DNA of 64,000 nt, taken from Exiguobacterium sp. 9-2 (lineage in GTDB: Bacteria > Bacillota > Bacilli > Exiguobacteriales > Exiguobacteriaceae). Positions 3,442 to 6,801 of this stretch are shown one piece after another. The stretch lies in contig NZ_CP142850.1 in NCBI RefSeq assembly GCF_036287235.1, forward strand, positions 956,001 to 1,020,000, read 5' to 3'. How positions within the stretch are numbered: position 1 is the stretch's first letter; each line of letters starts with the position of its first letter. A program made the position numbers and the translations under genes. Under the pieces are notes generated by a model. It was not told the origin of the DNA. It made no database searches and saw only the letters and a program-made list of their open reading frames with translations.

Positions 3442-5298
3442 TCAAGTTTCTAAAATTAAACGTTCATACAAACCTTCAATTTTTCGTAACAATGCTTCTT
3501 TTTCCATCTCGACCGTCATCCATTCTTCTTCCGCGGATACATGAGAAAGAACGGCATCAAGATGTACGACTTGAAGTTCCAACTCTTCTATTTGCTGTTC
3601 AATGGACTGTTCTTTCGCAGGTGCTTTCGAACGCTTTGAAATTTTCGATTTCTTCTCATGATTTATCTGAGGTGGTGTGCCATGACTGGCTTGTCGTTTC
3701 TCCACTGCGTAAGCATAGTTTCCAGTATACGAAGTAATTTGATGGTCAAGCCAAATGATTTTTGGAAAAAGACGATTCAAGAAATAGCGGTCGTGTGAGA
3801 CGGCGATCAATGTACCAGAAAAATTCTCGAGTGCTTCTTCAAGCGTCTCTCTTGATTCAATATCTAGATGATTCGTCGGCTCATCGAGAATCAAAACGTT
3901 GATCGACGAATGAACGAGTACGGCAAGCTGCAATCGAACACGTTCTCCTCCGCTTAGTGACAAAATAGACCGAAAGACAGTCGGTCCGAAAAACAGGAAC
4001 CGGGCAAGAATATGGCGGGCTTCCGCTTCTGGGACGGCAATGCGGTCTCTAAACCAGTCGATTAAGCGAGCATCCTCCTCGAAATGGGCATGTTGGGACA
4101 AGTAACCGATCCGGTTCGATGGTCCACGCGTGAGCGTGCCTGCGTCTGGTGACAATTCATCAAGCAACAGTGCGAGCAACGTCGATTTCCCGCTCCCATT
4201 CGTTCCGACGATTGCAACCCGATCTTGAGCCATGATTTCGAACGAGACAACATCGAAAATGCGACGGGAATCGTAAGCGAATGAGAGCTCTTCAGCGCGA
4301 AAGACGACTTGACTCGTATGATCGGTAGAAGAGAAGGAGACATCAGCGGTTTTGGCTTCGAGTTGAGGTCGTTTGATCCGTTCGATTCGCTCGAGTGCCC
4401 GCTCCATCGATTTTGCTTTACGGAATAATTTCTCACTCGGTGGAGATGCTTCGTTTGCCCATTGCCGTAGTCGACGAATCGCTTCCTTCATCTTCTTGAT
4501 TTTTTTCTGTTGCTCCTGATAGGCGTGGAACTGTTCCATCAAGCGACGTTCTCGTTCGACGACGAACGCACTGTAGTTCCCTAGGTAGGAGGTCAGTTCA
4601 CCATCTTCGAGCTCGACGATCGAGGTGACGACGGCGTCTAAGAAGACCCGGTCGTGAGAGACAAGCAGGATAGTTCCAGTGTAGTCCCGTAAGAATTGTT
4701 CTAACCATTCAACGGCAGCTAAATCAAGATGGTTCGTCGGCTCATCAAGGATTAGGAGGTGTGGTTCCATCAGCAACATGCGACCGAGGCAAATCTTCGT
4801 TTGCTCACCGCCGCTCAACTGATGGAAAGGGCGAGTGAGTAACGGACGTAAATGTAATCCGTTCACCATGCGCTCGATCTTCGAGTCGAGTAGATAGCCA
4901 TCTTTTTGTTCGAATGCATTTGTCGCTTCCGCATATCGAACGAGTAGTGCATCCAGATCATCTGGCGCTGTCGCCATCAAAAGCTCCAACTGTTGCATCC
5001 GAGAACGGATTGCGAGGATCTCTTCAAACGCCGTCCAAAGGACGTCGAGTCCGGTCATTGTCTCGGCATAAGTGGGAAGTTGTTCCAAGTAGCCAATCGT
5101 CAAACCGTTCTTTTGATAGATGACTCCACCGTCCGGTTGGTCAAGGCGAGCAAGTAAGCGGAGTAATGTCGTTTTACCACTCCCGTTTCGTCCAATCAGA
5201 CCGACACGATCGTGTTCGTTTAAGAAGAGGGAAACGTCCGTTAAAATCGTTTCGCCTCCGAATTGTTTTGTCAGATGTTGAATGTCGCAAATCATCAT
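3442..5298 (-). CDS. ABC-F family ATPase, probable ribosome-protection protein
   Basis: 618-aa protein with two ABC domains and no membrane segment. N-domain Walker A GRNGSGKTT, signature LSGGEQ, Walker B LLILDEPTNHLD; C-domain Walker A GTNGSGKST, signature LSGGER, Walker B LILDEPTNHLD. Between them is a charged linker/arm, and the C-terminal 80 residues are lysine/glutamate-rich coiled coil. ABC-F proteins bind the ribosomal E site and either tune translation or displace antibiotics. The attenuator-style leader upstream (leader peptide plus terminator) is typical of the antibiotic-inducible members, so ribosome protection is the favoured role; a housekeeping YdiF/Uup-type role is the alternative. 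ATG at 5298 has AAAGGA 10 nt upstream. Confidence 0.88.
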   Translation of the reverse strand: MMICDIQHLTKQFGGETILTDVSLFLNEHDRVGLIGRNGSGKTTLLRLLARLDQPDGGVIYQKNGLTIGYLEQLPTYAETMTGLDVLWTAFEEILAIRSRMQQLELLMATAPDDLDALLVRYAEATNAFEQKDGYLLDSKIERMVNGLHLRPLLTRPFHQLSGGEQTKICLGRMLLMEPHLLILDEPTNHLDLAAVEWLEQFLRDYTGTILLVSHDRVFLDAVVTSIVELEDGELTSYLGNYSAFVVERERRLMEQFHAYQEQQKKIKKMKEAIRRLRQWANEASPPSEKLFRKAKSMERALERIERIKRPQLEAKTADVSFSSTDHTSQVVFRAEELSFAYDSRRIFDVVSFEIMAQDRVAIVGTNGSGKSTLLALLLDELSPDAGTLTRGPSNRIGYLSQHAHFEEDARLIDWFRDRIAVPEAEARHILARFLFFGPTVFRSILSLSGGERVRLQLAVLVHSSINVLILDEPTNHLDIESRETLEEALENFSGTLIAVSHDRYFLNRLFPKIIWLDHQITSYTGNYAYAVEKRQASHGTPPQINHEKKSKISKRSKAPAKEQSIEQQIEELELQVVHLDAVLSHVSAEEEWMTVEMEKEALLRKIEGLYERLILET

Positions 5299-5323: not shown

Positions 5324-5356
5324 TAAAAAAAGGGAGAGCGCAAATAGCACTCTCCC
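5324..5356 (-). terminator. Leader terminator upstream of the ABC-F gene
   Basis: Stem of 10 bp (5332-5341 with 5347-5356, one G-U in RNA), 5-nt loop and a run of U, placed 26 nt before the ABC-F start codon. A strong intrinsic terminator between a promoter region and its gene implies attenuation. Confidence 0.85.
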
Positions 5357-5360
5357 TAGT

Positions 5361-5515
5361 GTGTGAAAGATGCGCTTTGCTGTATTTTTCAATCATGAAG
5401 TTCTAAAAAAGGGCAGACGGGTGCCTTAGAACGCCATTCCATGAAAAATCGCGCGCAACAGATACAATTGTTCCATTAACCAATGTTTGCACGCAGCAAA
5501 GTCCATCATTTCACA
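5361..5515 (-). promoter_or_regulatory. ABC-F leader RNA with long-range pairing and a second hairpin
   Basis: The minus-strand segment 5515-5493, which spans the leader ORF start, is complementary to 5382-5361, just ahead of the terminator: 8 + 4 + 8 paired bases with one bulge and two mismatches. A second hairpin, 5432-5400 (GTTCTAA / TTAGAAC outer stem, GGCA / TGCC inner stem), overlaps the leader stop codon. The 3' arm also contains AGCGCA, able to pair with UGCGCU in the terminator. These are ingredients of ribosome-mediated attenuation; the exact antiterminator is unresolved. Confidence 0.65.
5426..5509 (-). CDS. 27-aa leader peptide of the ABC-F attenuator
   Basis: Short ORF beginning Met-Met-Asp-Phe and ending Gly-Met-Ala-Phe, preceded by AAAGGTGG 6 nt before ATG at 5509. 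The stop codon falls inside a hairpin, and the ORF precedes an intrinsic terminator and the ABC-F gene. This is the layout expected if antibiotic-stalled ribosomes on the leader relieve termination. The peptide matches no leader I recognise. Translation is inferred from the SD and context, not from homology. Confidence 0.6.
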   Translation of the reverse strand: MMDFAACKHWLMEQLYLLRAIFHGMAF

Positions 5516-5575
5516 CCACCTTTCGTTTCAGATACAACCAGTTTACCATTATCTTGTTAATTGCGGAAGTCTGAA

Positions 5576-6457
5576 TTATTTGAACACACCAGCAATCGAG
5601 CTGAAGAAGTCACTCAGACCATCAAATAATTTAGCGAAGAATCCTTTTGTCTCCTCGGACGTTGCAAACGCATGGATGTCTTGACCAGCATTTTTCAGTC
5701 CACTCTCGATTTGCCCCCAGTTGATGTTCGCTTGCTCCATTTGATTGAATAGATTCGTCAACCGATCCATCTGTGCATCAGACAGTTGGATGTTGTTGTT
5801 TTGAATGACTTGGACGATCAGGTTTTCGATCTCGACTTTTGTTTCCGGTTTTTGATTCGCGATTTCGGCCTTGATCTCATTCATCAAATCAGCGACTCTA
5901 TCTGTCCCGACTGTCTTCCCGACGTCTGATGTGACCGATAATTCTTGCTGTGCTAAATCTTTCCGTTCGTCACTCAGCTTGATTCCGGTCTCAGCCGAAG
6001 TTTGATCATAGGCTTTCATGATTCCTGTCAGTGCCGATGTTCCAGTCACTTTATAAGGAGAAGTGATCGTGATGTCGGCATCTTTGACACCTGCCGTGAC
6101 GAGAGCGTTCAAATACATATCCTTCGTCACCCACGTGATGTTTTCCGTCGCAACGGAAAGTCCGTCCCCTTTTTCCGTCAATTCGATCTTAGCGGATGAA
6201 TACATGTTGCCGCCCTTTTGTGACTGGGGGATGTTTTTCCCGAGGTATTTTTCTTCGTCTGCAGAGGTTGCGATGATCGGTGTGATACCTTCCGGTGCAT
6301 TGAGACGTGAAAGCACCCAAGCCTTATCTTTTGCGCCGAGTGACTCACCGAGAGTGACGATTGTCTTATCGACGACCTGCTCGGCGGATGCGGCTGTCGG
6401 AAGTAATAAAGCAGAAGCGATAACGGCTGACGCCATGATTTTTGTTGGTGTATGCAT
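5576..6457 (-). CDS. Secreted DUF1002 family protein (YpuA-like)
   Basis: 293-aa exported protein of unknown function. A signal peptide ends near ASA-E (about residue 25); the rest is a DUF1002 domain with a conserved TSP..VTGTSALTGI block, followed by a glutamine/asparagine-rich helical part. B. subtilis YpuA is the named relative. ATG at 6457 is chosen because GGAGG lies 8 nt upstream; the longer reading begins at TTG inside that SD. The gene stands alone, converging on nothing and divergent from the TPP-riboswitch gene. Confidence 0.82.
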   Translation of the reverse strand: MHTPTKIMASAVIASALLLPTAASAEQVVDKTIVTLGESLGAKDKAWVLSRLNAPEGITPIIATSADEEKYLGKNIPQSQKGGNMYSSAKIELTEKGDGLSVATENITWVTKDMYLNALVTAGVKDADITITSPYKVTGTSALTGIMKAYDQTSAETGIKLSDERKDLAQQELSVTSDVGKTVGTDRVADLMNEIKAEIANQKPETKVEIENLIVQVIQNNNIQLSDAQMDRLTNLFNQMEQANINWGQIESGLKNAGQDIHAFATSEETKGFFAKLFDGLSDFFSSIAGVFK

Positions 6458-6653
6458 AATGAAATCCTCCAATTGTAAGTAACAGAATGAATTATAGTAT
6501 CAGGTACTAAAATTAGTGTACGAGAACGAAAGAAGTTCGGAATCGGTCTGTAGATGGAGACGATATCCGCCTTCTGACACTCCATAGTATAGCGAAAAGA
6601 GGACAACTTGACTTCCATTTTCAGCATGCTATAGTGGATTTGAATCGAATAAT

Positions 6654-6747
6654 GACCACTAGGGGAGTCGGTAGGCCGACTGAGACGAACGAAGACGTTC
6701 GGACCCTTTGAACCTGATTAAGTTCGTACTTACGGAGGGAAGTGGCG
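6654..6747 (+). ncRNA. TPP riboswitch (THI element)
   Basis: Contains the hallmark TPP aptamer blocks in order: AGGGGAGTC, CTGAGA, GACCCTTTGAACCTGAT and GGAGGGAAGTGG. Stem P1 is formed by CCACT (6656-6660) and AGTGG (6741-6745). It senses thiamine pyrophosphate and would turn off tenA when the cofactor is abundant. Confidence 0.95.
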
Positions 6748-6801
6748 TCAAGTCTTGTTCTTCTTGCGCCATGCCCGTGTGTTTCGGGGTGGTGTTTTTT
6801 C
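6742..6801 (+). terminator. Expression platform of the TPP riboswitch: antiterminator/terminator
   Basis: The terminator stem is 6769-6777 with 6785-6792 (8 bp, one bulge), followed by six T (6795-6800). The alternative antiterminator pairs GUGGCG (6742-6747) plus CAAG (6749-6752) with CUUG plus CGCCAU (6763-6772), using both the 3' strand of aptamer P1 and the 5' strand of the terminator. TPP binding would keep P1 closed and let the terminator form. Confidence 0.75.

Follow-up and report, generated by a model that had tools for sequence, protein, structure and literature searches.

A probable leader-peptide attenuator related to Listeria rliI precedes an ABC-F gene in Exiguobacterium and its orthologues across Bacilli

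Layout of the locus

The 64,000-nt stretch analysed here (the window) belongs to a 3.06 Mb Exiguobacterium genome. On its minus strand a leader region lies between the gene of an uncharacterised protein (6472-5576) and that of an ABC-F protein (5298-3442), both on the minus strand as well. Between 5523 and 5325 the leader carries, in order, a Shine-Dalgarno sequence (SD), a leader ORF, a hairpin after the stop codon and a terminator, after which the ABC-F gene begins. The features are as follows.

5548..5575, minus: candidate sigma-70-like promoter, TTCAGA-16-GATAAT, directly past the upstream gene, proposed on a 9/12 consensus match alone
5516..5523, minus: SD AAAGGTGG of the leader ORF; a purine-rich SD is also present in the aligned leaders
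5426..5509, minus: leader ORF of 27 codons, MMDFAACKHWLMEQLYLLRAIFHGMAF and stop, kept in 37/37 Exiguobacteriaceae genomes, with the conserved start at 5506
5428-5426, minus: leader stop codon TAA, read from the sequence
5444..5455, minus: RAIF core codons CGC GCG ATT TTT, 17 codons past the conserved start
5494..5520, minus: 5' arm of predicted helix P1, comprising SD, start and codons 1-5, the putative first strand of an anti-antiterminator (swapped-arm energies, covariation)
5359..5382, minus: 3' arm of P1, the pre-terminator segment CAGCAAAGCGCATCTTTCACACAC, which may double as the antiterminator strand (folding, arm swaps, covariation)
5427..5450, minus: 5' arm of predicted helix P2, from the RAIF codons to the stop (arm-swap energies below)
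5382..5404, minus: 3' arm of P2 (folding, arm swaps)
5405..5425, minus: conserved post-core element GGCACCCGTCTGCCC-TTTTTT, a G/C-rich hairpin plus T6 directly 3' of the stop, a candidate RNA polymerase pause hairpin
5340..5356, minus: predicted 3' strand of the antiterminator, GGGAGAGTGCTATTTGC, overlapping the terminator 5' arm
5325..5357, minus: intrinsic terminator with an 11 bp stem, 5-nt loop and U6 (terminator scan, covarying stem)
3442..5298, minus: ABC-F ATPase of 618 aa, the putatively controlled gene (NF000355, 482.7 bits)

The terminator stem runs from 5357 to 5331 and is followed by U6 (scan count 1, against a shuffle mean of 0.2). Folding of the 213-nt leader gave -81 kcal/mol compared with -52.7 +/- 4.3 for shuffled sequences (z -6.65, 0/200), and in the predicted fold the SD/start region is paired with the segment directly before the terminator. 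A sequence-only reading of this DNA had described an SD, a 27-codon ORF, a hairpin on its stop codon, a long pairing of the start region with the pre-terminator segment, a strong terminator and an ABC-F gene; all of these are present, the conserved ORF being 26 codons long, and the observation is confirmed. Elsewhere in the window, a TPP riboswitch (RF00059, 77.9 bits; 6651-6757, plus strand) precedes an ORF that starts at about 6831 and encodes a TenA-type thiaminase-like protein.

Conservation of the leader and its peptide

A direct DNA search found the leader in 17/17 other genomes of the genus and in 19/19 sampled genomes of the sister genus, and in 0/24 other, more distant Bacilli genomes. 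Alignment of 36 distinct leaders showed that the first ATG of the window ORF (5509-5507, minus strand) is private to the window, close relatives having AAG there. Because the relatives have the second ATG alone, we take the conserved ORF to be the 26 codons from 5506, encoding MDFAACKHWLMEQLYLLRAIFHGMAF. Elsewhere in the family the peptide reads (M)KFVGRTHWTTEHLYILRAIFHDVA in the sister genus and MTFAKRVHWLMEQLYILRAIFHGMAF in one deep branch. The post-core element, with the family form GGGAnnnGTnTGYCC plus a T-run, lies 10 codons after the R of RAIF; in the window leader it is non-coding and yet conserved in the alignment.

Searching the whole collection for RAIF codons (CGN/AGN-type, GCN, ATH, TTY) followed by GTMTGYYCTTTTT within 20-32 nt returned at least 120 matches, and 80 loci among the matches listed were examined. 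Among these, an ABC-F start lay directly downstream in 61/80, four more were clear leaders whose sequence stretch ends before the gene, and the remaining 15 look like chance, most of them coming from unrelated phyla. Hosts of RAIF leaders among the matches listed were Bacillaceae of many genera, Sporolactobacillus, Scopulibacillus, Caenibacillus, Thermoactinomyces, Shouchella, Listeria and Exiguobacterium. In a set of Bacilli genomes, a pattern much like this one matched 45/399, against 0 for a reversed-pattern control, and outside Bacilli it gave one match, by chance. The strict RAIF pattern was dropped as a gauge of leader frequency because it misses variant cores.

Judged by substitution rates in the RAIF leaders, the peptide is under purifying selection, with a dN/dS of about 0.15 (0.14 in the N-terminal part, 0.15 in the core). 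In 55 non-redundant RAIF leaders, Arg is encoded by four different codons, Ala by four and the Leu at position -4 by six, and all 55 use ATT for Ile and TTT for Phe. The dN/dS values and this codon use together show that the peptide is selected and that ATTTTT is additionally constrained at the RNA level. The RAIF codons lie within RNA helices, so part of the RAIF conservation is also at the RNA level. The distance from the start codon to the R of RAIF was 18 codons in 39 of the 55 leaders and 17 in 13 (52/55).

Pairings within the leader RNA

P1 is, on comparative grounds, the best-supported helix of the leader. Over the 55 RAIF leaders, own arms paired at -28.2 kcal compared with -17.6 when arms were swapped between species (permutation minimum -20.2; z -4.7), and 54/55 did better than shuffles. 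Repeating this with 47 leaders of ABC-F orthologues, most of them non-RAIF, gave -28.2 for own and -18.8 for swapped arms (permutation minimum -21.4), with 43/47 beating shuffles. The P1 arms differ in sequence among three Exiguobacteriaceae lineages and keep their complementarity. When the inner P1 helix was scored together with the terminator stem, 96% of cells were paired (slid registers, 31-53%) and 69 cells had changed on both sides; the covariation score was 0.317 vs 0.152 in shuffles (0/500). P2, which encloses the post-core element, is modestly supported and less so than P1 (own arms -13.7, swapped -9.6 kcal; z -1.8; 25/55 leaders); z-scores across the leader sets are not independent, as the species are related. 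The sequence-only reading had proposed a leader-peptide attenuator before the ABC-F gene and had suggested aligning the leader across relatives, a lack of conserved ORF or paired arms counting against it. The outcome was clearly the opposite: the leader is present in 36/36 other Exiguobacteriaceae, its codons are conserved at the dN/dS given above, and its stems covary.

The terminator is present in 55/55 RAIF leaders. Many Bacillaceae leaders (L067-L140) have two tandem intrinsic terminators at about +115 to +200 from RAIF, a weaker one first and then a strong one of the CCATGG type; Exiguobacterium has one.

In 11 Exiguobacteriaceae leaders the P1 3' arm is complementary to the terminator 5' arm (-12 to -20 kcal, mean z -2.0; about -17 kcal in the near-identical L093 and L002). 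Since both P1 and the terminator would compete with this duplex for an arm, P1, antiterminator and terminator are predicted to be mutually exclusive in this family, as in the vmlR leader. By complementarity the predicted antiterminator is well supported in Exiguobacteriaceae and weakly supported outside them: in the wider set the z-values were -0.73 +/- 0.15 for the first terminator and -0.75 +/- 0.20 for the second, with 3' arms about 0, and this signal (z about -0.7) is no better than that of species-swapped arms. For this reason the idea that all lineages build their antiterminator by pairing the P1 3' arm with the terminator 5' arm was rejected. An antiterminator formed by a freed P2 3' arm gave no signal (z +0.3) and was rejected too. 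The conserved element (+30 to +50 from RAIF) is itself partly complementary to the 5' arm of the first terminator (mean z -1.02, 18/55), perhaps representing a second antiterminator pairing.

The effect of ribosomes was explored in a folding model in which transcription was halted before the terminator 3' arm was made, the readout being the probability that the terminator 5' arm is paired upstream. Without a ribosome this was 0.38; a ribosome placed at the start gave 0.73, one placed at RAIF gave 0.39, and a three-ribosome queue from RAIF to the start gave 0.76. In this model the switch could therefore be thrown by stalling early in the leader or by ribosomes queueing after one has been arrested at RAIF, and could not be thrown by a single ribosome at RAIF. 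Equilibrium folding of the full transcript favoured the terminator nearly always.

Relation to Listeria rliI

In a permissive Rfam search, window positions 5532-5294 matched the rliI family (RF01487) over its full length (1-239) at 17.8 bits and E 0.011, below the curated cut-off of 45 and a weak match if taken alone. The same model scored 25-38 bits in 12 sister-genus genomes (best 37.5), 39.0 (L126) and 30.7 bits in two further families, and 46.4 bits, above the cut-off of 45, for a Listeria valentina leader (L117) found independently via the RAIF scan. Through these intermediates the homology of the window leader to rliI is clear, the window's own score leaving it outside RF01487 membership. 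The L. valentina leader precedes an ABC-F gene inside the RAIF-led clade described below (99/99), the L. valentina gene rather than L. monocytogenes lmo2760 being the one placed in that tree. About 3 kb from this rliI-type leader lies an LhrC sRNA gene (L117 157-266, minus strand; 114.6 bits).

Reading the printed rliI consensus as codons (MLLSNARTSTAKFLYIVRAIFSG) gives M L L S N A R T S T A K F L Y I V R A I F S G, with the start 17 codons before RAIF as in the window leader. Like the window leader, rliI also lies upstream of an ABC transporter ATPase gene (lmo2760); unlike it, rliI has been described as a Listeria sRNA. A trans-acting role has been proposed for RliI, and its overexpression was reported to lower lmo1035-lmo1036 mRNA (review PMC8079631). 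The same review cites term-seq work (Dar 2016) that puts rliI among the putative conditional terminators, with lmo2760 as the gene concerned. The sequence-only reading had not recognised the leader peptide; the leader proves to be a homologue of this Listeria 'sRNA', and in the open-licence literature searched we found no description of the rliI leader peptide or mechanism.

Leaders with other cores

About 70/180 Bacilli genomes had an orthologue of the window ABC-F, at E below 1e-139, with a distinct paralogue group at E 1e-111 to 1e-124 (E-values are per genome). About 50/53 of the orthologue upstream regions carry a leader ORF, a strong SD and GGGAnnnGTnTGYCC followed by a T- or A/T-run; the figure is approximate because it combines 47 regions found by a relaxed matcher with three read by eye. 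Among the 53 inspected, the scaffold was not found upstream of L250, L277 and L283. The GGGAnnnGTnTGYCC element was found upstream of 0/20 paralogues, and a stricter matcher scored 25/40 orthologues vs 0/20 paralogue controls. The leader is far beyond chance, because it recurs upstream of orthologous ABC-F genes across Bacilli with compensatory changes in its arms.

Read in frame, the element encodes NGxSLPFF-type residues in Bacillaceae; in Listeria and Thermoactinomyces it is read in another frame (RDKSALF, RDTYVLF), and in Exiguobacterium it lies past the stop codon, so that it must be conserved at the nucleic-acid level. Ten codons before it stands a core that differs by lineage: RAIFH, RAKFA, [AS]S[MI]TH, CAITH, AGIVH, RGKFA or GFSYD. 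RAIF itself is the core in Bacillaceae, Listeria and Exiguobacterium and is replaced elsewhere (e.g. by RAKF, SMTH, AITH or AGIVH), the general pattern being a small residue, next to it mostly I, M or K, and often H two positions on. In the non-RAIF lineages the start-to-core distance is about 12-19 codons, and the core-to-element spacing alone is kept.

Several more general ideas were weighed against this set. A NusG TTNTTT pause shared by all the leaders would match the T6 seen in the window, but several lineages have AATTTT or ATTTA instead, and such a pause stays a candidate. Invariant spacing as proof of queueing was given up, the distance being near-fixed within RAIF leaders and varying elsewhere. 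Chloramphenicol and linezolid follow a penultimate-alanine rule (PMC8987054), and with Ile in the P site the penultimate residue is alanine, which suits RAIF, RAKF and AITH. As the penultimate position is taken by S, G, V or N in other lineages, these drugs are kept as a lead and not as the sensed class. In Thermoactinomyces (L126) and Shouchella (L143), complementary segments of the GGAAGAGAC and GTCTCTTCC types flank the terminator, one being the P1 3' arm and the other the stretch directly before the ABC-F start, possibly an added translational layer.

The ABC-F protein

With 482.7 bits, the ABC-F passes the cut-off of 380 of the general model for ribosomal-protection-like ABC-F proteins (NF000355). 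It fell below the NCBIfam curated cut-off of every named resistance subfamily tested, namely those for Vga, Lsa, Msr, Sal, OptrA, CplR and producer proteins (bits/cut-off: Vga 333.6/725, Sal 312.7/725, OptrA 304.1/1450, CplR 262.1/780). Its best relatives of solved structure are EttA, YheS and VmlR-type proteins at 266-275 bits, above PoxtA at 223, and a grouping with PoxtA/OptrA by sequence was therefore rejected. The linker joining its ATPase domains exceeds that of E. coli EttA by about 11 residues, counted in the alignment. PADLOC matches were of the generic ABC-ATPase kind and were set aside as nothing specific.

In a tree that included five paralogues from the window genome, all the ABC-F proteins encoded downstream of RAIF leaders fell into a single clade apart from these (99/99), the paralogues sitting on long branches. 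Two orthologous genes appear damaged: that at G010:C19:287904-289109 is seemingly truncated (the match covers residues 1-403) and has an intact leader, and that at G197:C8:3990-5651 is broken by stops, both possibly cases of gene decay.

Discussion

The part order of the leader matches that of the Bacillus subtilis vmlR leader, in which a uORF lies inside an anti-antiterminator stem and is followed by a pause-type hairpin, a terminator and the ABC-F gene (PMC9226507). In both, the stem involves the start of the ORF: P1 covers the SD, start and codons 1-5 of an ORF under purifying selection. This likeness is one of leader layout and does not imply that the window ABC-F is a VmlR orthologue. The pairing that sequesters the start, which the sequence-only reading had thought unusual, has counterparts with the same anti-antiterminator layout in vmlR (PMC9226507) and rli53/lmo0919 (PMC8079631). 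The vmlR uORF is the tripeptide MIN (PMC9226507), and reported uORFs of this type are MIN, MR[I/M], MK[L/Q] and MAGN (PMC10201436). In rli53/lmo0919 (VgaL, Listeria) and Clostridioides cplR, a drug-stalled ribosome on the uORF causes antitermination (PMC8079631, PMC10201436). Unlike the three-codon uORF of vmlR and those of rli53/lmo0919 and cplR, which have no conserved body, the window ORF encodes a selected peptide of 26 codons with a near-fixed and replaceable core. That the leader works like a vmlR-type attenuator is well supported by sequence comparison; a drug response would be a further, putative likeness, and membership of the vmlR type is incomplete, a 26-codon ORF not being a very short uORF. 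The curated models place the gene outside Vga, Lsa, Msr, Sal, OptrA and CplR. The interpretation offered by the sequence-only reading is partly supported, the drug inducibility that it proposed being a prediction.

We know of no RAIF-type arrest core, and none was found in the open-licence literature searched. Leaders of erm genes control a ribosome-protection gene by drug-dependent ribosome arrest on a leader peptide. The msrD leader does likewise (PMC10314930). Both differ from the window leader in having other arrest motifs.

Taken together, the leader is probably a ribosome-mediated transcription attenuator of the ABC-F gene, homologous to Listeria rliI. In the ground state, ribosomes would translate the leader and depart, the SD/start region would pair with the pre-terminator segment (P1), and the terminator would fold, leaving a short leader RNA as sole product. 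Under translation stress, such as that caused by an inhibitor of the ribosome, ribosomes would pause at the core (RAIF, 17-18 codons from the start) and occupy the start region or queue back to it, blocking P1. The freed P1 3' arm could then pair with the terminator 5' arm, letting RNA polymerase read into the ABC-F gene, whose product would rescue the stalled ribosomes. The GGGAnnnGTnTGYCC/T-run past the core may be a polymerase pause coupling the two machines. We favour the queue because it would explain why the peptide is under selection and why RAIF keeps a near-fixed distance from the start; as the start-to-core distance differs in non-RAIF lineages, the queue geometry would not be universal.

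It is possible, and we regard it as a serious competitor, that the leader instead senses stalling at its start codon as vmlR does: lincosamides, pleuromutilins and streptogramin A would stall initiating or very early ribosomes at the leader start, with RAIF kept mainly as RNA arms. In the folding model, blocking nothing but the start region is enough for the whole predicted effect (0.73), and vmlR, cplR and lmo0919 act in this way with 3-codon uORFs (PMC9226507, PMC10201436, PMC8079631). Such a sensor, however, requires no long conserved peptide, and the leaders show a dN/dS of about 0.15, an L(-4) maintained through six different codons and a near-fixed spacing of RAIF from the start.

Less likely, the core is a feedback arrest peptide that stalls ribosomes unaided until the cognate ABC-F clears the stall, so that the leader would read free ABC-F activity rather than drug. 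The change of core by lineage on a constant scaffold agrees with this, as does the presence of the leader before a single ABC-F orthologue group and not before the paralogues inspected, but a response to drugs is what earlier work on ABC-F leaders has reported (PMC9226507, PMC10201436, PMC10314930). It is very improbable that the transcript mainly base-pairs with distant mRNAs as a trans-acting small RNA, as proposed for RliI from the overexpression effect on lmo1035-lmo1036 (PMC8079631), since its fixed place before one ABC-F orthologue group, the dN/dS of about 0.15 and the P1/terminator covariation point to action in cis. An arrangement with no switch, in which the terminator simply serves the upstream gene and the ORF is a small functional protein gene, would fit a leader ORF that starts <100 bases past that co-oriented gene (stop at 5576). 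It deserves just as little credence, given that the P1 arms at the leader start are complementary in a lineage-specific way and that the leader is tightly linked to one ABC-F orthologue group.

Returning to attenuation with arrest at the core, we tentatively propose a broader and rather speculative picture. One scaffold may have guarded a single ABC-F orthologue group across families of Bacilli, its arrest core being swapped many times (RAIF, RAKF, SMTH, AITH, AGIVH, RGKF). Each leader might be a matched sensor that stalls where the cognate ABC-F can resolve the stall. Together the leaders would then make up a naturally occurring collection of arrest motifs, and what RliI does throughout could be cis attenuation and not trans regulation. 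On our reading rliI, filed as a trans-acting Listeria sRNA, would gain a cis function, a leader peptide, a testable mechanism and a range across Bacilli. RAIF and its lineage-specific replacements would be a candidate class of arrest peptides with directly testable inducers. The ABC-F group, outside the named resistance subfamilies and apparently controlled like a resistance factor, bears on which unassigned ABC-F proteins protect ribosomes, and against what.

A second ABC-F gene of the same genome (G000:C1:619930-621714, minus strand; 614-codon frame) has an attenuator-like leader of its own, with an SD (AGGAGG), a conserved uORF of 8-9 codons of the MK[QH]xLAxV type, a strong terminator-like hairpin and the sequence GAGTCTGCTC. 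This leader (loci L038 and L216-L233) was present in 18/18 genus genomes tested and in 0/5 sister-genus genomes.
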